A stretch of DNA of 36,975 bases from Gammaproteobacteria bacterium (GTDB lineage Bacteria > Pseudomonadota > Gammaproteobacteria > Steroidobacterales > XN24), in NCBI GenBank assembly GCA_024640085.1, contig JAHEFR010000024.1, positions 1 to 36,975 of the forward strand. Direction: 5' to 3'. Made by a program: the position numbers and the translations under genes. Every line of letters starts with the position of its first letter. The stretch's first letter is position 1. The notes under the pieces are model-generated. The model had not been told where the DNA came from and did not search any database. It was given only the letters and a program-made list of their open reading frames with translations. Below are positions 12,568 to 36,846 of the stretch, piece by piece.

Positions 12568-14142
12568 ATGACAGACGATAAGTCCGGTGCCACCGGACTG
12601 TGGGAGGAAATCAAGCGCCGCAAGGTGGTGCGGGTCGTCGTTGCCTACGTCATCGTGGGCTGGGGGTTGATCCAGGTCGCCGATGCCACCCTGGAGCCGC
12701 TGCGCCTGCCGGATTGGGCGGGCACCCTGGTGATCTGGCTGATCGCCCTCGGTTTCCCCATCGCGGTGATCCTTGCCTGGACGCTGGACATCACGCCGAA
12801 GGGCATCCAGGTGACCAAACCCGCCGGGGAGGAGAAGACACCGGAACCGTCGGCGCAGTCATCGCCCGCCGAGGCGTCCATCGCCGTGCTGCCGTTCGTG
12901 AATATCGGTGGGAGTCCCGACGACGAGTATTTCAGCGATGGCCTGTCCGAGGAGTTGATCAACCTGCTGGTGCGCCTGCAGTCCCTGCGGGTCTGTTCGC
13001 GCACCTCGTCTTTCGCCCTGAAGGGCAAGGACGTCGACATGCCGACGATTGCCGACCAGCTCGGCGTCCGGCACGTGCTGGAGGGCAGCGTGCGGCGCGC
13101 CGGCGAGCGGGTCCGGATCACCGCCTAGCTGGTGGATGCCGTCGATGACCGGCACCTGTGGTCGAAGACCTTCGACCGGGAGCTCAAGGATATATTCGCC
13201 GTCCAGGATGAGATCGCGGCGAGCCTGTTCGCCGAACTCAAGCTCACCCTGAGCGCCGACGAGCGACAGGCCATCCAGCCCACCACCGACAGCGTTCAGG
13301 CGCTGGATTGCTACCTGCGCGGGCGCGAGCTCTATCATCGTCCCGGTCACCTGGAACCAGCTGGCGAGCAGTTCAAACAGGCCATCCGCAACGATCCGAA
13401 TTACGCGTTGGCCTGGGCGGGGCTCACGTACGTGTGCGTCGATACCTATTGGTACAAGGACAAGGAAGCGGGCTGGCTCGAGCAGGCGGACGAGGCCAGC
13501 CGCAAGGCCGTCGAACTGGCGCCGCACCTGGCCGAACCTCATGCGGCCCGCGGCCTGTCCCTGCGGGCGGCAGAGCAATTCGACGAGGCCGATGCCGAGT
13601 TCGACCGGGCCATCGCCATCAACCCGCGCCTGTTCGAGCCGATCCATTTCCAGGCCCAGATGGCGCGCAGTCTGAAGCAATATGAGCGGGCGGCCGCGCT
13701 GTTCGAACGGGCCGCCCAGGTACGGCCGGAGGACTACCAGGCCCTGGCGCTGGCGGCGAACATGCACGAGTTCATCGGCGATCTGGATCGCGCCCGGGAG
13801 CTGGCTCCGGAAGTGATCGATCGGATCAAGCGGGCACTGGACCTCAATCCTCAGGATTCACGAGCGATGATTCTTGCCACGGGCGCCTGCTACTTGCTCG
13901 GAAGGAACGACGAAGCGCTGGAATGGGTTGCCAGGGCACAGGTCACCTCACCGAAGGCCAATGGAGTGATGTACAACTCCGCCTGTTTCTACGCGCGGCT
14001 GGGGCAGACCGAGAAGGCGCTGGATTTCCTGGAGAAAGCGGTGGCGTTGGGCAGCCGCAACAAACGCTATTTCGACAGCGACAAGGACCTGGACTCGCTC
14101 CGCGACCACCACCGTTTCAAGGCATTGATGGATACCCTTTAA
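12568..14142 (+). pseudogene. TolB-like/TPR membrane protein interrupted by an amber codon
   Basis: Reads as one 524-residue protein except for TAG at 13126-13128 (codon 187). Both halves are in the same frame. Order: cytosolic WEEIKRRK, a membrane helix at about 20-38, a second at about 53-74, a Pro/Glu-rich linker, a TolB-like domain from about 104 (SIAVLPFVNIGGSPDDEYFS, DGLSEELINLL, LEGSVRRAGERVRIT), then TPR-type helical repeats to the end. In the paralogue at 21072 the residue at the stop position is Gln (VRIVAQLIDA), so CAG to TAG is a one-base nonsense change. Downstream codon usage and domain integrity are preserved, which suggests a very recent mutation, a sequence error or suppression. 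A GTG or ATG reinitiation could yield the TPR part alone. The function of the family is unclear; it is probably an envelope signalling or scaffold protein. Confidence 0.8.
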
Positions 14143-16042: not shown

Positions 16043-18214
16043 TCAGTCGCAGATGACCTTGTCGTCCGCCGGGTGGCAGAGATCGGGCCAGCCGTAGGCG
16101 TCCCAGTAGTCCCTCAGCCCGCTGATCTCGATCAGGGTCTGGAAGCGCGGGTCGGCCCGAAATTCGCGCAGTTCCGGAAACCAGAGATTCTCGAGGCGAA
16201 GCTGGTGCTTTCTTGCGGCTGGGAGCACAACCTTGTAGGCCCGGTCGACCTGTCCCAGGAACCCGTAAAAAATCACGGCGGCGTCGCCGGAAAGTCCATC
16301 CCCGGACTCCCGTTGCGCCAGGAATTCCAGGGCCTCTGGCATGCGTTGAGGATCGGCCAGGGCGAGGAGCACAGGCTCTGGCCACAGCCGGCCCGGGAAC
16401 TCGTCCCTGGCCTCGGCATGGACCCGGATCGCCTCATCGTACTGCCCCATGCGCAGGTAGTGGATCCCGGTCAGGTTGACCGTGTGCCAGTATTTCAGAC
16501 CGAGTTCGGTGGAGAAATTCAGGTGCTTGATGGCCAGGTCGTCCTCGCCCAGCAGCGTATATACAAAGCCCAGGGAATGGTGAGTCAGGGGCGCGAGGGG
16601 GTCCAGGTCCACGGCGCGGAGCAGAGCCGCGCGGCCGGCGTCGAGCCTTCCGGTCGAGATCAGGAGGAAGGCGTACCATGTCTGGGCAAGGGGGTCGGTG
16701 GGCTCCAGTTGCAGTGCGATGTCAAAGGCTGCCCGGGCCTCCTCCCATTGCCAGGTCTCTTCGGCGATCCCGCCGAGGACGGCATGAGGTTCGCCCAGCG
16801 TGGGATCGAGGTCGATGGCCCGGTGCACGGCCTCGCGCGCCTTGGCGTCGGTTTCCGGTCGTGCTTGCCGGGTCCAGACAGGCGTCAGCGCATAAGCCGC
16901 GGCGAGGGAGGACCATGCCCTGGCGAACTCCGGATCCAGTGCCACGGCCTGCTTGAACTTCTCGATGCTGCCGAGCACCCCGTCCGTGCCTCGCTGGTGC
17001 AGCAGGTGGCGGCCCTGCAGATACAGTTCATAGGCCTCGATATTGCTGGTCGGCAGGGCGCCAAGGATCTTGCTAGACGCTTCTGGCCCGAATTCCAGGC
17101 TCAACGATCGCACGATGGCATCCGAGATGTCCCGTTGCACGTCGAAGATGTCGGCCAGAGAGCGTTCATAGGTCTGGGACCAGAGGTCGAAGCCCGTGGC
17201 GGCATCGGTCAGGCGGGCGCTGATTCGCAGGCGGTTCCCGGAACGCCGGACGCTGCCCTCGAGCACGGTGGTGACGCCCAGTTGGCCGGCGATGTCAGAG
17301 ATGTTTTCCACGCGGCCTTTGAAAAAGAAAGAGGACGTGCGCGCGGCGACCTTCAGCCCGGGGACCTTCGAAAGCTTGTAGATCAACTCCTCGGACAAAC
17401 CATCGGTGAAGTATTCGTTGTCCGGATCGGCGCCCAGGTTGACGAACGGCAGCACCGCGATGGATCGTGGTTCGATGGTCGGCGCCGTGACCGCTGCCTG
17501 GTCGTCGATGACGTGAGAGAGTAGGCCGTACGTGACGCCCATGAGGCCGAGTGCCAGCAATGCGATGACAAGGTAGTCCGTCAATCGGAGCGCTTTGTCG
17601 GCAGCATCCGGATTCAACGGCCGGGTGCGGACGATGCCCCGGGGGGTGATGTCGAATATCCACCCGAAGACCAGCGCCAATGGCAGGCCCGCGATCGCGC
17701 CGATGAATACATAGCGCAGCAGGCTGGCTTCGATTCCCCACGCCGGGAAAGCGATCTCGGACACTTGCAGGATGACCCAGGCGGCGACCACATAGAGCCC
17801 CGCCACATGGAAGATGCCCCGGCGTTGTGCCTCCCTGAGGATGCGCTGCGCCAAGGACGTCGTGTGTTCGGCGCCGGCCGCCGGGGCTTCGGCACCCAAT
17901 CTTGCCACCGGCACCACAAGGCGATAACCGCGTCCCCGGACCGTCACGATGCCGCGGGACGCCGGGTCCTTGTCACCCAGCGCGTCGCGGAGCAACTTGA
18001 TCCGCTGGACAACCGTTTCGTCGGCGACGACCACATCTCCCCAGACCGACTGCATGAGTTCCCGGGTGCTGACCACGTTGGGCGACCGGCGGACCAGGAC
18101 GACCAGGAGCTTGAAGGAGAGATTCGGGAGATGAATCTCTCGCCCGTCCCGTTGCAGGGTGTTGGCATCGACGTCCAGGATGAGGCTGCCGACTCTGTAT
18201 CGCTCTGACGCCAT
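16043..18214 (-). CDS. CadC-like membrane regulator with TolB-like and TPR domains
   Basis: A 723-residue one-component regulator. Residues 1-103 are an OmpR/CadC winged helix (FKLLVVLVRRSPNVVSTREL, VWGDVVVADETVVQRIKLLR, GRGYRL). Residues 135-235 hold three hydrophobic helices. From about 250 a TolB-like domain begins (SIAVLPFVNLGADPDNEYFT, DGLSEELIYKL, LEGSVRRSGNRLRIS), and from about 395 to 690 there are TPR-type repeats. With a cytosolic N-terminus and three helices, the TolB/TPR part should lie in the periplasm, as in CadC-type sensors. The ATG at 18214 is preceded by GGAGAGC; the GTG three codons upstream would place that site inside the gene. The ligand and target genes are unknown. The short C-terminus ends with two Cys (LCHPADDKVICD) that could form a disulfide. 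A CDF gene lies upstream in the same direction. Confidence 0.92.
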   Translation of the reverse strand: MASERYRVGSLILDVDANTLQRDGREIHLPNLSFKLLVVLVRRSPNVVSTRELMQSVWGDVVVADETVVQRIKLLRDALGDKDPASRGIVTVRGRGYRLVVPVARLGAEAPAAGAEHTTSLAQRILREAQRRGIFHVAGLYVVAAWVILQVSEIAFPAWGIEASLLRYVFIGAIAGLPLALVFGWIFDITPRGIVRTRPLNPDAADKALRLTDYLVIALLALGLMGVTYGLLSHVIDDQAAVTAPTIEPRSIAVLPFVNLGADPDNEYFTDGLSEELIYKLSKVPGLKVAARTSSFFFKGRVENISDIAGQLGVTTVLEGSVRRSGNRLRISARLTDAATGFDLWSQTYERSLADIFDVQRDISDAIVRSLSLEFGPEASSKILGALPTSNIEAYELYLQGRHLLHQRGTDGVLGSIEKFKQAVALDPEFARAWSSLAAAYALTPVWTRQARPETDAKAREAVHRAIDLDPTLGEPHAVLGGIAEETWQWEEARAAFDIALQLEPTDPLAQTWYAFLLISTGRLDAGRAALLRAVDLDPLAPLTHHSLGFVYTLLGEDDLAIKHLNFSTELGLKYWHTVNLTGIHYLRMGQYDEAIRVHAEARDEFPGRLWPEPVLLALADPQRMPEALEFLAQRESGDGLSGDAAVIFYGFLGQVDRAYKVVLPAARKHQLRLENLWFPELREFRADPRFQTLIEISGLRDYWDAYGWPDLCHPADDKVICD

Positions 18215-18471
18215 GCTCTCCACGGATTTCCGATGTCCGGCCTGTGTTGTCCGTGCCGGGAACCCGATCTGCCACCTCGGGGGGTTGTTCCGGCGATGCC
18301 CGGTCGGCTTGTTGCCAATGAATTATGGACCCGGACCGGAGAAAGCACCGGATCCAGCCTACCGACGCGTGGTTGCGCTCCAGGTGCAGGCCAGGAAACA
18401 AGCGGGGTCGGACCACGCCAACTGTCTGATCAGTCTCGGAATCTGAATCCAAGGAGCGGTCATTTGGTCAC

Positions 18472-21071: not shown

Positions 21072-22703
21072 TTACGCGCGGTAGGTCGGGAGTTTCTCGA
21101 CCAGTTCGATGAAACGCGGGTGGTCACGGATGTTGTCGAAGTCCGCGTCATTTTCAACCCACTCACGGTAGATGGTGCCCATGGCCTGCATGCGCCGCTC
21201 GAACAACTCGATGGCCGTGTCCACCTCGCCGATGTTGGAGTAGTAACACACGGCATTGTGCAGCACGCCGCCGTCGTTGGGCGCGAGTTCGACGGCGCGT
21301 TCCGTCATGGCGCGACCGTCGTCGGTACGGCCGGCGTGATGGGCCATGCAGCCGCCCAGCATCAGTGCCCGCAGATCGTCGGGGTTCAGCGCCAGGCGCC
21401 GGTCAACAGCCTCGAGTCCGATACGGTTCGCCTCCAGGGCCTCTTCCTCCCGACCGAGGGAGAACAGGGCCTGCGTGCGGAGGGCGGCGGCCTGGAACTC
21501 GTCCGGCCGGGCTTCGTGGGCCCGTCCCCAAAGCTCGGCGGCATGTTCCAGGTTGCCCTCGGCAAAACGGGAGCGGCCATAGGTATAAAGCGCATCGTAG
21601 TTCATGGGATCCAGGGACAGCGCCTTCTCGAACTGCGTGGCAGCGCCTTCGAAGTCACCCCTGGCCGACAGCACGTAGCCGCGGGCGGAATGCGCCTCGG
21701 CCAGGTCCGGCGCCAGTTCCAGAGCCTTGCGGCTGGCGGCATCCGCTGCTTCCAGCCTCTCGGGCGCCGGGTCAATCCACTGGGCGACGATGCTCTCCGT
21801 ATCGGCCAGGCCTGCGTAAGCGCGCGCGAATCCCGGATCGATCTCGATGGCCTTCTGAAACATCTCGCGGGCGAAATTCAGATCCCTGGTGGTCACCTGG
21901 TGGAAGTACTGGCGGCCCCGCAGATAATAGTCGTAGGCTTTTATGTCGCTGGTGTTGCCACCGCATTCGACACAGGTCTCCGGATCCAGGTTCATGGCGT
22001 CGACGATGCGCTTGGCGATGTCTGTCTGTACGGCGAAGATGTCCTCCAACTCACGGTCGTAGCTGTCGGACCACAGGTGGGCGTCGTTGGCCGCATCGAT
22101 GAGCTGGGCGACGATGCGCACCCGGTTGCCTGCCCGGCGGACGCTGCCTTCCAGCACGATGTCGACACCGAGTTTGTGGGCGATGGCTGGCACGTCCAGG
22201 GTCGTGTTCTTGAAAGAAAATGACGAGGTGCGCGAGACCACTCTCAGGTCCGGCTGCTTCGCCAGCAGGTTGAGAATCTCCTCGGTGATTCCATCGCTGA
22301 AGAATTCGTTCTCCGGATCGCCGCTCATGTTGGTCAGTGGCAAGACGGCGATGGCCCGGCGATTGTCCGAGCGTGCCTTCGGCAGGCTGAGGGCGGTGTG
22401 TTCGCCGTTTCCCTGGGAGGCGGATAACGAAAACGCTGGTTCGGCATCCGTCTTCTTCACTTCGCGCTGCAGGCCCTGGGGAGACACCTCGAAAGCCCAG
22501 GCCAGGACCAACGCCAGCGGGAATCCGATGGCGGCGAGGACGATCACCAGAGTCAGGGACCACTCAGGCAGCCGCAGGGGCTCGAACACGACCTCGGCGA
22601 TCTGGATCAGCAGCCAGGCGACAATCACATAGACCACTGCTGCCTTGACGACCTTGCGTCGCCGAAGCTCGCTCCAGAAAGTCTTCGCTCCCGATTCGGC
22701 CAC
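21072..22703 (-). CDS. TolB-like/TPR membrane protein
   Basis: A 543-residue paralogue of the genes at 12568 and 16043, without a DNA-binding domain. Order from the chosen start: WSELRRRKVVK (10-20), a membrane helix at about 21-40, a second at about 50-71, then a linker. The TolB-like domain begins at about 117 (AIAVLPLTNMSGDPENEFFS, DGITEEILNLLAK, LEGSVRRAGNRVRIVAQ). TPR-type repeats follow from about 255 to 530 (IDPGFARAYAGLADTESIV, LAPDLAEAHSARGYVLSARG). A CVEC motif sits at the domain junction. I start at the GTG at 22703, which lies just ahead of the conserved region; a frame open for 140 more codons overlaps the divergent SRPBCC gene and has no family similarity. Likely an envelope protein with the TPR part outside the membrane; the partner is unknown. 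Confidence 0.88.
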   Translation of the reverse strand: MAESGAKTFWSELRRRKVVKAAVVYVIVAWLLIQIAEVVFEPLRLPEWSLTLVIVLAAIGFPLALVLAWAFEVSPQGLQREVKKTDAEPAFSLSASQGNGEHTALSLPKARSDNRRAIAVLPLTNMSGDPENEFFSDGITEEILNLLAKQPDLRVVSRTSSFSFKNTTLDVPAIAHKLGVDIVLEGSVRRAGNRVRIVAQLIDAANDAHLWSDSYDRELEDIFAVQTDIAKRIVDAMNLDPETCVECGGNTSDIKAYDYYLRGRQYFHQVTTRDLNFAREMFQKAIEIDPGFARAYAGLADTESIVAQWIDPAPERLEAADAASRKALELAPDLAEAHSARGYVLSARGDFEGAATQFEKALSLDPMNYDALYTYGRSRFAEGNLEHAAELWGRAHEARPDEFQAAALRTQALFSLGREEEALEANRIGLEAVDRRLALNPDDLRALMLGGCMAHHAGRTDDGRAMTERAVELAPNDGGVLHNAVCYYSNIGEVDTAIELFERRMQAMGTIYREWVENDADFDNIRDHPRFIELVEKLPTYRA

Positions 22704-22965
22704 TGACCGCCGCTCCGCGCTATTCCCAGCCGGAATAATAACAACGGTTGGGGAGGCGGACCCGGATTTCAATGCCCCTGCCGGAGCCCTTCCGACAGTA
22801 AACCGGAGGCGGCTCTGGTGCTGATGGCGGTTCCGGCGCCTTTCCACCCCGGGCCGTTCCCGGGATTCATCCGGTCTCGACTTCGGCCGCTGACCTGATT
22901 TTTGGGGAATCCGGAGGTACCCTGGCGACGAATCCATTGGCACATTCCCCGGACCGAACGAACGG

Positions 22966-23913
22966 ATGACCCACACCCTGGACACACATATCCGGATACC
23001 CCTTCCCCGGGAGGACGTGTTTCCGTTCTTCTGTGACGCGTCCAACCTGGAGAGGATCACGCCGGATGAACTGCATTTCGAGATTGTTACGCCGCCGGTC
23101 GAGATGAAAGAAGGCGCGCGCATCCGCTACCGTCTGAAATTATGGGGTGTGCCGTTTCACTGGGAGACGATCATCCGCCGCTGGGAGCCCCCGTTTCGCT
23201 TCGTGGACGAACAGGTTTCGGGACCCTACCGCCGGTGGGTGCATCGCCACGAACTCGTCGAGACACCCGACGGAACGATGATCTACGATCATGTGGATTA
23301 CGAATTGCCTTTGGCGCCCCTGGGTGACCTGTTTCATCCGTTGCTGCGGCGGCAGCTCGCCCGGATCTTCCGTTACCGCCACAATACCCTTCACAAGCTG
23401 TTCGCCAGCGATGACTACCCTACTGCGCCGCTGCTGATCGACGCCGCGCCGGCGCTGATGCCGGCGTCTCTTTGGGATCCCGCGCCCGCCGCAACGCCCC
23501 CTGCAGGAAATCCCGGGGGAGAGAGCTGGAAGATAAAACTCCTTTACGACGGCGCATGCCCCTACTGTCGCCGGGAAATGCACTGGCTGAAACGCCGCGA
23601 CCGGACAGACGCGATACTCCTCGAAGATATTGCAGCCCCAGAATTCGACCCCAGCCGCTACGGCCTCACTCAGGAGATCGTTGACGGAAAGATCCACGCC
23701 CTGCTGCCCGATGGGCGCATGGTCACCGGCATGGAGGTTTTCCGCCGCCTGTATACCGCCGTGGGCCTTGGCTGGCTGATGGCGCCCACCGGCTGGCCGG
23801 TGTTCAGGCCGGTGTTCGATTTTGGCTACCGGCTGTTCGCCCGCTATCGTCACCGACTCGGTGGCAGGGCGGAGCGGGACTGCGAAGAGGCCGCCTGCCA
23901 GTCGCGATCCTGA
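22966..23913 (+). CDS. SRPBCC-DCC fusion protein (ligand-binding plus thiol-redox domain)
   Basis: A 315-residue protein with two domains. Residues 1 to about 150 are an SRPBCC/START-like ligand-binding fold (THTLDTHIRIPLPREDVFPF, FEIVTPPVEMKEGARIRYRL, YDHVDYELPLAPLGDLFHPL), typical of cell-division-inhibitor-like SRPBCC proteins. A Pro/Ala-rich linker spans 150-185. Residues 188-305 are a DCC (DUF393) thiol-disulfide-oxidoreductase-like domain with IKLLYDGACPYCRREM, where Cys198 and Cys201 form the CxxC pair, and GKIHALLPDGRMVTGMEVFR. The DCC motif is usually DGxCxxC and is satisfied. Each part is usually a separate protein. No signal peptide or ribosome site is obvious; the ATG at 22966 fits the start of the first strand. 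The substrate is unknown. Confidence 0.87.
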   Translation: MTHTLDTHIRIPLPREDVFPFFCDASNLERITPDELHFEIVTPPVEMKEGARIRYRLKLWGVPFHWETIIRRWEPPFRFVDEQVSGPYRRWVHRHELVETPDGTMIYDHVDYELPLAPLGDLFHPLLRRQLARIFRYRHNTLHKLFASDDYPTAPLLIDAAPALMPASLWDPAPAATPPAGNPGGESWKIKLLYDGACPYCRREMHWLKRRDRTDAILLEDIAAPEFDPSRYGLTQEIVDGKIHALLPDGRMVTGMEVFRRLYTAVGLGWLMAPTGWPVFRPVFDFGYRLFARYRHRLGGRAERDCEEAACQSRS

Positions 23914-33164: not shown

Positions 33165-34376
33165 CTACGCGAGCATCTTCGCGATCAGGCGCTCGCAGGC
33201 AGGCTGGTCCATGTAGCGAGGCACGGCGTAGGTGAAGTGAGCCTCCTTCAGTGCCGCCCTGGCGATGCCCGGGATATCCGACTTCTTCAGTGCGTCGAGC
33301 TTGTCCGGAATACCGAACTGTTCGTTCATGGACCGGATGTGGTCGATGAATTTCGTCGCCAGTGCCTGGGGCCGGTCGCCCTTCTTCTTGAGGCCGGCAG
33401 CCTCGCCCAGGGTGGCCAGCCGGCGGATGCAGCTTCGCTTTGAGAAATCCAGCACGTAGGGCATGACGATGGCGTTGGCCACTCCGTGGGGCGTGTGATA
33501 GTAGGCGCCGAAGTTGTGGGCGATGGCATGGACATAGCCGACACCGGCCCGGGTGAAGGCCAGCGCCGCGTAGTAGGAGGCAAAGGACATGGCCTGGCGC
33601 GCCTCCAGGTCCTTACCCTTGCTCACTGCCACCGGGAGGTTCGCCATGATCAGCCGGGTGGCGGCCAGGGCGTAGCCGTCGGTCTCCGGCAGGGCGTTGG
33701 CCGAGATGTAGGCCTCCACCGCGTGGGTCAGGGCGTCCATGCCGGTGGCGGCGGTGACATGGGGCGGGAGGCCGGTCATCAGGGCCCCGTCGAGGGCCGC
33801 CATCATGGGCACCAGCTTCGGGTCCATGATGGGCGTCTTCTTCCTGCGCTTCGGGTCCGACACCACGGCGGCGATGGTCACCTCGGAGCCGGTGCCGGCG
33901 GTGGTCGGGATCACGTACAGGGGGAGGGGCGCCGAAAAAACCTTGAACATGCCCTCCATCCTGGACACGGGCTTGTTGTTCGTGGCACGGGCGGCGATGA
34001 CCTTGGCCGCATCGATGGGCGATCCACCACCCACTGCCAGGATGGCCTGGCAGCGCTCTCGCTTGAGCACTTTCAGGCCGGCTTCGATCTGGTCGACCGT
34101 GGGATCGGGCAGGACGCCGTCGTAGACCACGGCGCGGACCCCGAGAGCTTCAAGTTTCGCCTCGATATCCTCGAGCAAGCCGATCTTTACCAGCATGGCG
34201 TCGGTCACGATCAGCACCCTCTGGACGCCCATCAGCGCCATCGCCTCGCACAGCTTCAGGGACGAGCCGGGCCCCGAGAACAGGGTGGGCTTGGGGAAGG
34301 GGAGGGTCTTGGCCACCCCCTTCAGAGTCTTCATCAGGCCCTGGTAGCCTGCCACCTGGATGCCGAAGGGGATCAT
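33165..34376 (-). CDS. Iron-containing alcohol dehydrogenase
   Basis: A 403-residue group III (Fe-dependent) alcohol dehydrogenase, interconverting alcohols and aldehydes with NAD(P). Cofactor motif GGGSPIDAAKV at 116-126, PTTAGTGSEVT at 157-167 and metal ligands Asp214 and His218 (MDALTHAVEAY), His287 (AHNFG) and His297 (TPHGVANA), matching the Asp/His/His/His site of the family. The length is usual. The first 20 residues (MIPFGIQVAGYQGLMKTLKG) are slightly longer than in some members; the ATG at 34376 has no strong ribosome site. It is divergent from the acyl-ACP-reductase-like gene at 34615, so a shared pathway that makes a fatty alcohol is plausible. Substrate specificity cannot be read from the sequence. 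Confidence 0.93.
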   Translation of the reverse strand: MIPFGIQVAGYQGLMKTLKGVAKTLPFPKPTLFSGPGSSLKLCEAMALMGVQRVLIVTDAMLVKIGLLEDIEAKLEALGVRAVVYDGVLPDPTVDQIEAGLKVLKRERCQAILAVGGGSPIDAAKVIAARATNNKPVSRMEGMFKVFSAPLPLYVIPTTAGTGSEVTIAAVVSDPKRRKKTPIMDPKLVPMMAALDGALMTGLPPHVTAATGMDALTHAVEAYISANALPETDGYALAATRLIMANLPVAVSKGKDLEARQAMSFASYYAALAFTRAGVGYVHAIAHNFGAYYHTPHGVANAIVMPYVLDFSKRSCIRRLATLGEAAGLKKKGDRPQALATKFIDHIRSMNEQFGIPDKLDALKKSDIPGIARAALKEAHFTYAVPRYMDQPACERLIAKMLA

Positions 34377-34403
34377 GACGGGGCCTCTCGCGTTGTGATT
34401 GGA

Positions 34404-34422
34404 CCGGCCGCACGCTGGCCGG
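34404..34422. promoter_or_regulatory. Inverted repeat in the divergent control region
   Basis: CCGGCC at 34404-34409 and GGCCGG at 34417-34422 around a 7-base centre, about 30 bp from the dehydrogenase start. It could be an operator, or a hairpin in the dehydrogenase mRNA leader. Confidence 0.35.
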
Positions 34423-34438
34423 GAAGTTCAGATTACCA

Positions 34439-34466
34439 AGTATAGGGACTCCCCACACCGGCCCAA
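34439..34466 (-). promoter_or_regulatory. Candidate promoter for the alcohol dehydrogenase
   Basis: On the minus strand TATACT (34444-34439) is a good -10. TTGGGC (34466-34461) with a 16-bp spacer is a modest -35. The expected start is about 34432, giving a 55-base leader that contains the inverted repeat at 34404-34422. Confidence 0.4.
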
Positions 34467-34501
34467 ATCTCCCCCGAGGACTCGGCGCCCGGTCCCGGCG
34501 G

Positions 34502-34507
34502 TATAAT
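34502..34507 (+). promoter_or_regulatory. Consensus -10 element for the acyl-ACP-reductase-like gene
   Basis: An exact TATAAT, unusual in this GC-rich region, with a weak -35 (AGGACT, 19 bp upstream). It predicts a transcription start near 34514 and a leader of about 100 bases to the ATG at 34615. It shares the 238-bp divergent region with the dehydrogenase promoter. Confidence 0.45.
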
Positions 34508-34614
34508 CGACTGTTCCGGGTCGCCGCGTGCCGGATGCCGCAATCGGCGGTGGCCAGACGCGTCGGGACCGGCAGCCCCGCGACAGTGACGGGGCGAACG
34601 CAGCGGAGCCAGCC

Positions 34615-36846
34615 ATGAAGAAAGTCGTCAGCGTATCACTCGGTCCCTCCAGCAAGGACTACAAGTTCGAGACACGCTTCCTGGGACAGGAGTTTCAAGT
34701 GCGGCGTGTCGGCACGGACGACGACGAAGGCAAGGCATGGGAGATGCTGCGCCGCTACCAGTCCGAGGCCGATGCCATCGGGCTCGGCATGATCCGCGAT
34801 CATTACGACATCGGTTCCAGGCGTCAGGTCCACAGGGAGACGGAGCGTCTGCTCAAGGTCGTCACCCGGGTGCCGGCCACCACCGGCGCCGACCTGCGCC
34901 GGCTGCTGCAGGTGCGGGCGGTGCGCTACGTGCAGAGGAAGCTGGTCAACTACTTCGACAACAACCTGGTGTTGTTTCTGTCGGGAATGGTGAATTTCGA
35001 CATGGCCCTGGCCATGTCCGATTACACACCCAACCTGAAGTTCGCCGACGCGGTGCTGGACACCGGCGCGCCGGCCATCCTGACCTCTCTCGATCAGCTC
35101 GAGATCTACGCCCGCGGCGCCCAGTTTGCGTCGTCCCTGCTGCCGACCCAGAAACTGTCGAAGTTCCCCGGCCTGTCCACGCTGCGCAGGGAGATCATCA
35201 CCCGGGAGATGGCCAAGTGCCATGTCATCGTCGGGACTTTCGACGACATCGCCGCCCTCGGCAAGCCCGAGAACCTGGAGGGCAAGACCCTCATCACCTC
35301 GGCCATCGATGACGACCGGCTGGAGTTCTTCCGGGAATGCAACGTCAACCTGGTGGTGGATGTCTCGCCCAATCTGTTCGATCGCGTAGTAGGCCTCAGC
35401 ACCATCCAGGCGATGATCCTGGCAGCCCTGGACACCACCAGCGAGGAGCTGTCGGATAACGACCTGGAAGAGATCGTGGACGAGCTCAGGATCGAGCCCC
35501 GCCTGCTCTATCCCACCGGCGAGTTCCGCAACATCCGTCGGTTCGCATTCGTGGTGCATCCCCTAAGCCAGGAATACATCCGCAAGGGGTTCCCGGTGCC
35601 GAAGGGCACGCCCAAGTTCGTCATGGATCAGGTGGAGAAGGTCGCCGCCCATATGCCGCCGATGGTCTACTGCAAGATGGACAACATCATCTCCCCCACC
35701 GGCGCCGAGGCCGAGGGCTGGCTGATCTCTGTAGGCGGTACACCCAAGGAGATGCTGAGCCGCAGTCCGGAGTTCACCTACCGTCGCCTGCTGGCCGCCG
35801 CGAAGATGGCAGAGAAGATGGGTGCCCAGATCCTCGGGCTGGGCGCTTTCACCAAGGTGGTGGGCGACGCCGGTGTTACGGTGGCGCGCCGGGCCACCAT
35901 CCCGGTTACCACCGGCAACAGCTATTCCGCCTCCGGCGCCCTGTGGGCCGCAGCCGACGCCATGCGCCGCATGAACCTGGTCAGAACGGACGAGAGCGGC
36001 AAGGTCCAGGCCAAGACCATGGTCATCGGCGCGTCCGGGTCCATCGGCTCCGTCAGCGCACGGCTTCTGGCGATGGCGTTCGACGAGGTCTACCTGGCTG
36101 GCCGCACGCTCAAGAAACTCGAGGCGCTGAAGAAATCGATCCTGGAGGAGACACCGGAAGCCAAGGTGGTGGCCACCGTGGACTACGAGCAGTACCTGGG
36201 CGACATGGACATGATCGTCACGTCGACCTCGGGAGCGGGGAAGAAGATCCTGGACATCACCAAGGTGAAGCCGGGCTGTGTGATCACGGACGTGGCGCGC
36301 CCCCTGGATCTGCCACCGGAGGAGGTGGCCAAGCGGCCCGACGTACTGGTGATCGAGTCCGGCGAGATCGAGCTGCCCAGCGACGTCAACATGAAGGATA
36401 TCGGCCTGCCGAAGAACGTGATCTATGCGTGCCTGGCGGAGACCATCGTGCTGGCCCTGGAGGGACGCTTCGAGGTGTTCACCATCGGTCGTGACACGGA
36501 GTGGCAGAAGGTCAAGGAGATCTACAAGCTGGGTCTGAAGCACGGCATGAAGCTGGCGGCGATCTCCGGCGTGAACGGCGTGTTCAGCGACGAGGACATC
36601 GCCAGGGTCGTGCAACTCGCCAGGGAGGCGCGCAAGACATGGAAGCCCGGTGGCAGCCGATCGGCGAAACGGGGCGCGAAGGCGGCAGCACGCAAGAAAA
36701 CGGCCAGGAAGAAGGTGTCCGTCGCCCGAAAGCCCTCGGCCAGCAAGAAGGCATCGGGGAGGAAGACCTCACCGAAGAAGACGGCGGCAAAGAAATCCCG
36801 GGGAAAGACGTCCGCGGCCCGCAAGAAGAAGGCTGCCAGAACGTAG
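34615..36846 (+). CDS. Acyl-ACP-reductase-like protein with novel N-terminus and basic H1-like tail
   Basis: A 743-residue protein in three parts. Residues 1 to about 305 (MKKVVSVSLGPSSKDYKFET onward) have no family I recognise. Residues about 310-660 resemble cyanobacterial long-chain acyl-ACP reductase (AAR): FAFVVHPLS at 310, then ILGLGAFTKVVGD, IPVTTGNSYSASGALWAAAD, the Rossmann loop GASGSIGS from 472, YACLAETIVLALEGRFEVFT with Cys606 at the position of the AAR active-site cysteine, and LGLKHGMKLAAISG. Residues about 679-743 are a Lys/Ala/Arg-rich tail with KKTA, AAKKS and one SPKK, like eukaryotic H1 or bacterial H1-like tails. AAR makes fatty aldehydes from acyl-ACP with NADPH. The ATG at 34615 has GGAG 7 bases upstream; an earlier start at 34528 lacks support. 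It is divergent from a Fe-dependent alcohol dehydrogenase. Confidence 0.82.
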   Translation: MKKVVSVSLGPSSKDYKFETRFLGQEFQVRRVGTDDDEGKAWEMLRRYQSEADAIGLGMIRDHYDIGSRRQVHRETERLLKVVTRVPATTGADLRRLLQVRAVRYVQRKLVNYFDNNLVLFLSGMVNFDMALAMSDYTPNLKFADAVLDTGAPAILTSLDQLEIYARGAQFASSLLPTQKLSKFPGLSTLRREIITREMAKCHVIVGTFDDIAALGKPENLEGKTLITSAIDDDRLEFFRECNVNLVVDVSPNLFDRVVGLSTIQAMILAALDTTSEELSDNDLEEIVDELRIEPRLLYPTGEFRNIRRFAFVVHPLSQEYIRKGFPVPKGTPKFVMDQVEKVAAHMPPMVYCKMDNIISPTGAEAEGWLISVGGTPKEMLSRSPEFTYRRLLAAAKMAEKMGAQILGLGAFTKVVGDAGVTVARRATIPVTTGNSYSASGALWAAADAMRRMNLVRTDESGKVQAKTMVIGASGSIGSVSARLLAMAFDEVYLAGRTLKKLEALKKSILEETPEAKVVATVDYEQYLGDMDMIVTSTSGAGKKILDITKVKPGCVITDVARPLDLPPEEVAKRPDVLVIESGEIELPSDVNMKDIGLPKNVIYACLAETIVLALEGRFEVFTIGRDTEWQKVKEIYKLGLKHGMKLAAISGVNGVFSDEDIARVVQLAREARKTWKPGGSRSAKRGAKAAARKKTARKKVSVARKPSASKKASGRKTSPKKTAAKKSRGKTSAARKKKAART

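Follow-up and report, generated by a model that had tools for sequence, protein, structure and literature searches.

AAR-long, the 743-residue product of a gene on a Gammaproteobacterial contig, is apparently a reductase of the acyl-ACP reductase (AAR) superfamily, with a further AAR-like half that seems to be inactive and, in this lineage, with a histone-like tail. We propose that it probably reduces acyl thioesters in the synthesis of wax esters (or fatty alcohols), acting with an iron-containing alcohol dehydrogenase (Fe-ADH) and WS/DGAT, and that it most likely supplies fatty aldehydes for storage wax. Inference gives good support to both the chemistry and the pathway. The initial annotation named no pathway; the genome context suggests one leading to wax ester or fatty alcohol. 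The window (the whole stretch of DNA analysed, 36,975 nucleotides) is an entire contig, from a genome of 3.19 Mb that is 95.8% complete. The features discussed below are:

34615–36846, plus strand: AAR-long gene (743 aa, putative two-headed acyl-thioester reductase), coordinates including the stop
34615–35520, plus strand: putative pseudo-AAR half, residues 1–302, with an AAR-like fold and without the glycine loop or catalytic Cys
35521–36630, plus strand: predicted catalytic AAR-like core, residues 303–672, from a structural match to AAR 6jzq and the PigE and TIGR04058 profiles
36028–36051, plus strand: GASGSIGS dinucleotide loop, residues 472–479, GA[TS]G[AS]IG in 40/40 aligned rows
36430–36432, plus strand: codon of Cys606, in YACLAET, Cys in 40/40 rows and aligned with the Cys of AAR and PigE
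36631–36843, plus strand: Lys/Arg/Ala-rich, histone-H1-like tail, residues 673–743, from composition, modelled as disordered
33165–34376, minus strand: iron-containing alcohol dehydrogenase, divergent neighbour (Pfam Fe-ADH 6.9e-47, ADH_Fe_C 3.3e-48)
34377–34614, no strand: divergent intergenic region between the Fe-ADH and AAR-long genes, read from the sequence

The reading frame comprises 743 codons, from the ATG at 34615 to a stop codon that ends at 36846. Further upstream, at 34528, the frame also contains a GTG; the ATG is favoured because M1 is kept in at least 90% of an alignment of 40 sequences. Since homologues are present at 44 loci in other genomes, AAR-long is not a chance reading frame. 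Five of these 44 loci (L008, L030, L042, L043 and L045) were removed from the first alignment for ambiguous letters or truncation, L012 was also removed from the second, and the third used 27 of the 40 rows. An AlphaFold model of the full-length protein, built with 40 sequences, had a mean pLDDT of 81. The division into three parts, with extensions at both ends of an AAR-like core, was borne out (residues 1–302, 303–672 and 673–743). The initial annotation regarded this architecture as undescribed. At the level of titles and abstracts, no published description of the two-part protein was found in the open-access literature; the two-part body itself is widespread in bacteria.

The nearest named rows to the window protein in the gene tree are metagenome-assembled genomes of Gammaproteobacteria and Chromatiales. 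The window genome also encodes one paralogue (36% identity, locus L002 on contig C54). L002 and a second locus, L052, encode more distant two-part AAR-like proteins, 36–38% identical, which do not adjoin the Fe-ADH of the AAR-long neighbour cluster and have a small gene alongside, which we take to resemble the GFA family. Nine other genomes (G205, G208, G242, G290, G292, G305, G340, G356 and G372) carry two AAR-long genes near each other on one contig, the second copy being 43–56% identical to the window protein; such pairs may reflect a division of labour.

Structure prediction, which could have shown no AAR-like fold in the core, returned that fold clearly: the AlphaFold model aligned with AAR 6jzq at Z 32.3 (326 aligned positions of the 345-residue chain, 3.2 Å), and Z scores of 29–32 were obtained for AAR crystal structures and the carmabin terminal domain (TAD), compared to about 12 for the next other family. 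Likewise, the six best Foldseek matches were all AAR chains (E 1.9e-18 to 3.8e-17). At the sequence level, the core also matched the AAR and PigE crystal structures. Its best NCBIfam model was PigE (6.5e-56; 190.2 of 850 bits, over positions 2–364 of an 837-position profile), and it matched the AAR model TIGR04058 at 2e-19 with 70.1 bits against a cut-off of 449.7. The motifs by which the core had first been recognised, GASGSIGS at 472, Cys606 in YACLAE and TTGNS (residues 432–436), are all in place, and both the loop and Cys606 are kept in all 40 aligned sequences. By alignment, Cys606 is the counterpart of C294 of cyanobacterial AAR, which is described as holding the acyl chain as a thioester with NADPH seated above it (PMC7089970, in part). 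From the AAR fold, the conserved loop and Cys606, the core is expected to reduce acyl thioesters to aldehydes. The six Pfam matches of AAR-long included no aminotransferase family, no NAD_binding_4 (PF07993), no HMG-CoA reductase domain (PF00368) and no phasin family. In a plasmid collection, 16 records matched AAR-long, in the reductase part only; 13 were annotated as PigE-kind aminotransferase proteins and the remainder were unannotated. The N-terminal half of L044 had no match in the same collection.

The N-terminal extension of about 305 residues had been called unrecognised. This holds for sequence searches, as Pfam gave nothing for residues 1–305 at E values up to 10, the profile of this half had no match among PDB chains within the same limit, and its 39 members gave weak, scattered matches (best E 0.0063 in NCBIfam and 0.015 in Pfam). 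It does not hold for structure. Modelled alone with AlphaFold (pLDDT 89.5), the N-terminal half had AAR as its best structural match (Z 14.1, 252 aligned residues, 4.3 Å), with the next fold at Z 10.8. Four AAR and five carmabin entries topped this comparison, at Z 13.1–14.1 over about 250 residues from end to end. We consider the AAR fold of this half a moderate result, since Foldseek alone ranked glutamate dehydrogenase first, a carmabin domain sixth and AAR nineteenth. At the position of the glycine loop, the N-terminal half has VLFLSGM.N[YF] as its typical sequence, in which a single glycine (Gly124) is invariant. Column 262, taken as the Cys position from the order of the secondary-structure elements, holds N in 29, S in four, Y in four, D in two and A in one of the 40 rows, and never Cys. 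We therefore read the N-terminal half as a putative, catalytically dead AAR-like domain, and the likeliest reading of the models is that AAR-long joins a pseudo-AAR half to a working AAR half.

An origin of the two halves by duplication was not supported by sequence, as their profiles did not match each other (hhalign probability 1.7%, E 0.029; single-domain family against core, 0.8%; all from shallow profiles with Neff 2–3). An internal duplication is thus argued from predicted structure, on which a common origin is likely. The alternative that the N-terminal half is an unrelated module is no longer the leading view, AAR being its best structural match. Conservation of the motifs RxGTDGD and PVTTG suggests that this half may still bind a ligand. 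Single-domain relatives occur in Chloroflexota, as judged by profile comparison: the N-terminal profile matched 33 of 201 genomes in a Chloroflexota sample, the matched reading frames being about 700 residues long in some cases and about 300 in others, and nine aligned short forms matched the profile at 1.8e-44 (hhalign). At two Chloroflexota loci (L068 and L079), the short form adjoins genes for a MobA-like nucleotidyltransferase and a PAP2 phosphatase; at a third (L075), a nucleotidyltransferase neighbour was assigned by similarity clustering only. These single-domain relatives perhaps take part in polar-lipid head-group synthesis.

The genes around AAR-long point to its pathway. Here and below, counts for 47 distinct loci exclude the paralogue loci L002 and L052 and the duplicates L001, L047, L048 and L049. 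An Fe-ADH gene, which we propose encodes a fatty-aldehyde reductase, adjoins AAR-long in 20 of the 47 loci, in varying orientation, and in 14 of 17 loci of the Pseudomonadota group (one of which, L012, is cut upstream). In the window the two genes are divergent, and the region between them presumably holds both promoters. At six loci outside Pseudomonadota (L020, L035, L037, L040, L041 and L042) the Fe-ADH is 611–648 residues long. The one long form scanned (L040, 5769–7604) is an Fe-ADH fused to an SCP2 lipid-binding/sterol-carrier domain, and by eye the C-terminus of the L035 protein resembles the SCP2 form. A WS/DGAT gene lies within 3 kb of AAR-long in seven of the 47 loci; HHxxxDG is present in all seven proteins, and Pfam confirmed the four that were scanned. 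Elsewhere in the window, three proteins (12568–14142, 16043–18223 and 21072–23123) look alike by eye, each showing repeats as well as a membrane segment. In the first, the coding sequence is apparently interrupted by an in-frame stop, giving two reading frames in one frame.

Across genomes, WS/DGAT was found in 46 of 48 distinct genomes with AAR-long, the exceptions being G229 and G232. These 48 are the 52 genomes searched (50 with WS/DGAT) minus the duplicates G001–G003 and minus G005, which is without AAR-long. In a sample of the class (which includes G000 and G177), WS/DGAT was found in 12 of 185 genomes, and full-length AAR-long in two of 185 (from a tally of six), both with WS/DGAT; this sample is not a matched background because the 48 genomes span several phyla. 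In the order sample, drawn around a Desulfobacterales genome, WS/DGAT was present in 19 of 23 AAR-long carriers compared to four of 123 other genomes (Fisher p 2e-16, ignoring kinship among genomes). Without the eight genomes that had initially been found by way of their AAR loci, the counts were 11 of 15 and four of 123 (p 3e-10, again ignoring kinship). In these counts, G247 and G368 (weak or partial) were not taken as AAR-long carriers (from a tally of 25), and G339 (weak, over the cut-off) was taken as having WS/DGAT. The two genes lie at most 5 kb apart in seven of the 19 genomes (G205, G242, G292, G305, G340, G356 and G372). Ten class-sample genomes, as well as G005, which belongs to the same family as the window genome, have WS/DGAT and no AAR-long, so AAR-long is one wax route among several. 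It should also be noted that WS/DGAT can make triacylglycerol too.

The window genome itself has three WS/DGAT genes. Roughly 4% of it could be absent from the assembly, which applies to the negative results that follow. No match to the HMG-CoA-reductase family was found in it, hence no FcrA was found. FarA and AcrB both, we assume, carry NAD_binding_4 (PF07993). The only match to this family in the window genome is weak and partial (6.8e-13), so FarA and AcrB are probably absent, as judged from sequence. PF07993 singled out the known reductases only in part: at the limit used it matched 42 of the 48 AAR-long genomes and also eight of 14 control genomes, and for this reason we drew our own line for a strong match at E < 1e-25. 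By that line, 23 of the 48 AAR-long genomes have a strong match, including the close relative G192; 15 of 48 have an HMG-CoA-reductase-family gene; and 15 of 48 have WS/DGAT with neither strong marker. In the titles and abstract openings of the open-access papers surveyed, no AAR-type enzyme is named in native wax-ester synthesis. SDR reductases like Maqu_2507 are reported beside ws/dgat, and the term acyl-ACP reductase does not occur in the excerpted text of that source (PMC10351704).

These observations are consistent with a pathway in three steps. Fold and residues suggest that Cys606 would accept an acyl chain from acyl-ACP or acyl-CoA, and that NAD(P)H, bound at the loop of residues 472–479, would, on the model of cyanobacterial AAR, reduce this thioester and release a free fatty aldehyde. 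Gene context points to the adjoining Fe-ADH as the enzyme that would turn the aldehyde into a fatty alcohol, and co-occurrence, with some adjacency, to WS/DGAT as the enzyme that would couple the alcohol to acyl-CoA. The N-terminal half, as a predicted non-catalytic AAR-fold domain, probably pairs with the core, where it could serve to hold the acyl chain or the acyl carrier, to gate it or to receive it.

Three other explanations were weighed. The same chemistry might lead, above all in Desulfobacterales, to alkyl-glycerol or plasmalogen-like ether lipids, or to a different alkyl product. Twelve of the 47 loci, almost all from the Desulfobacterales group, have a gene of one cluster 0.4–2.9 kb from AAR-long; the one scanned member of this cluster is an FGGY-family kinase by Pfam, which we read as a putative glycerol kinase, and an ether-lipid product would account for such a neighbour. 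It would also suit the four of 23 AAR-long genomes of the order sample that are without WS/DGAT (five of 24 if the G368 fragment is counted). However, WS/DGAT co-occurs strongly with AAR-long within that same order and in the Pseudomonadota carriers, and no ether-lipid gene was found among the chosen neighbours scanned with Pfam, so we think this product improbable. Alternatively, the pathway could run in reverse, with the Fe-ADH oxidising fatty alcohols and the AAR-like enzyme making acyl-CoA during the use of alcohols or alkanes. In principle both alcohol dehydrogenases and thioester reductases can work either way, which is the argument for such a direction; against it, the partner identified by co-occurrence, WS/DGAT, is a biosynthetic gene, and AAR is known as a reductase (PMC7089970, in part), which makes a degradative role harder still to credit. 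Least credible is a polyketide or peptide thioester substrate, as for PigE or the carmabin terminal domain, with WS/DGAT incidental: PigE is the best NCBIfam model and the scores of the carmabin TAD structures come close to those of AAR, but the PigE cut-off is far from reached (190 of 850 bits), there is no aminotransferase family match and the linkage to WS/DGAT is strong. We therefore retain the supply of fatty aldehydes for storage wax as the preferred role of AAR-long.

The third part of the protein is restricted to a subset of its relatives. The basic tail with its SPKK motif was confirmed: its 71 residues contain 30 Lys or Arg, an SPKK and no Asp or Glu, and a pLDDT of 31–37 indicates disorder. 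We surveyed 458 non-overlapping reading frames of at least 120 residues (some surely not genes) from the 52 loci L001–L052 and the window. Thirteen end in a tail of such make-up, of which 12 are AAR-long (eight distinct, the others from duplicate loci) and one is another reading frame. A long, strongly basic tail, of 43 to 150 residues and differing in sequence, is present in 11 of the 16 Pseudomonadota-group loci with a complete end (the window, L003–L015, L050 and L051), although the tail of L008 is possibly affected by ambiguous bases. In the same group L012 has a weaker tail, L013 has a short one and L006, L007 and L011 have none. Outside it, only L035 has a long basic tail of the same make-up; in most Desulfobacterales-group relatives the chain stops after 10–20 residues, and a cluster of Lys is often present there. 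L017 and L035 run longer. The tail of L017 has 22 Lys or Arg but 19 Asp or Glu, and that of L012 has nine Asp or Glu; neither was called basic, and both are among the 11 rows marked as tailed in the gene tree. On these distributions the tail is not a family-wide trait; in the loci compared, long basic tails are mostly found in Pseudomonadota, and the tail is a lineage-specific addition that most likely binds polyanions.

Because the enzyme is expected at the site of neutral-lipid synthesis, a tether is a fair guess for the tail, and our leading one is that it would link the enzyme, bound to droplets, to the nucleoid, much as other granules are tethered by PhaF and AlgP. As far as the sequence tells, the tail may equally bind acidic ACP, polyphosphate or membrane. 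A fuller version, in which the tail of this pseudo-AAR/AAR reductase anchors wax droplets, spreads them over the nucleoid and so has them shared out at division, is doubtful, and we offer it tentatively. We know of no described positioning system for wax droplets, nor of one with a lipid-synthesis enzyme as its tether, and the literature searched contained no report of either.

A ParA-like gene lies downstream of AAR-long in 18 loci, 16 of which are in the tree and fall in one clade; Pfam identified a ParA/MinD-type ATPase gene in L018 (7987–9089). L018 and the 17 other loci also have, downstream, a small protein of about 127 residues without a Pfam match, giving an orphan partition-like pair. 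Five genomes of the order sample (146 in all) have the ParA-like gene; each of the five carries AAR-long (p 7e-5), and each had already been reached through AAR loci. The gene was found in none of the 18 other AAR-long genomes, 15 of which were not reached in that way. In G208 and G222, the ParA-like gene and AAR-long are on different contigs. A general link to ParA is thus weakened, as the gene falls in a single clade of the tree and is missing from the other carriers of the order sample. The gene tree shows that the distributions of tail and ParA are confounded with phylogeny. In some Desulfobacterales relatives, which lack the long tail and have the ParA-type ATPase gene directly downstream, this ATPase could represent another solution to droplet positioning.

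In a survey of 1,093 bacteria, FarA was reported in 1%, AcrB in 31% and FcrA in 26% of WS/DGAT carriers, so that even without overlap some 42% of WS/DGAT bacteria have none of the three (Acr1 was not counted), and the fatty-aldehyde reductase acting after Acr1 is called unknown (PMC11948995, in part). We put forward AAR-long with its Fe-ADH as a candidate to fill both of these gaps, within Desulfobacterales and part of the Pseudomonadota. Its N-terminal half adds a domain family without a useful Pfam or NCBIfam match, which stands alone in some Chloroflexota. The tail raises the possibility of a physical tie between storage-lipid synthesis and the nucleoid; if the tether reading is true, enzyme and organelle tether would be combined in one chain on nascent wax-ester droplets.

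Compared to known systems, AAR-long stands closest to cyanobacterial AAR (TIGR04058; PDB 6JZQ, 6JZU, 6JZY and 6JZZ), with which its core shares the fold, the dinucleotide loop and the catalytic Cys, and which is also the best fold match for its N-terminal half. Cyanobacterial AAR is a single chain of about 340 residues, as the initial annotation had stated, and its partner is ADO (PMC7089970, in part), whereas AAR-long has 743 residues in two AAR-like halves and a tail, adjoins an Fe-ADH and does not reach the curated AAR cut-off. The reductase domain of PigE (prodigiosin; PDB 4PPM) is the closest curated sequence family and has its Cys at the same position; unlike AAR-long, which falls below the PigE cut-off, PigE serves pigment synthesis and has an aminotransferase after the reductase part. 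The carmabin TAD (PDB 9E4S, 9E4U, 9E4X, 9E50 and 9E56) shares the fold of the core (Z 29–30), but is 17–18% identical to it and belongs to an amino-acid-adenylation protein.

In predicted role, the conversion of acyl thioesters to alcohol or aldehyde for WS/DGAT, AAR-long resembles FarA, AcrB, FcrA and Acr1, which are other protein families; FcrA is described as reducing fully to the alcohol and Acr1 as stopping at the aldehyde and needing a partner enzyme (PMC11948995, in part), and an AAR would likewise stop at the aldehyde and need one. In its basic, disordered, histone-H1-like C-terminus, AAR-long resembles PhaF, PhaM and AlgP, whose C-termini are described as histone-like and DNA-binding (PMC9239181 and PMC13052382, in part). 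The likeness lies in the make-up of the tail: these proteins are granule-associated tethers and not AAR-fold enzymes, and the phasin body of PhaF is absent from AAR-long by Pfam. Finally, MLDS, a major droplet protein of Rhodococcus that we liken to AAR-long by its description, provides a precedent for a link between neutral-lipid droplets and DNA (PMC5504291, in part).
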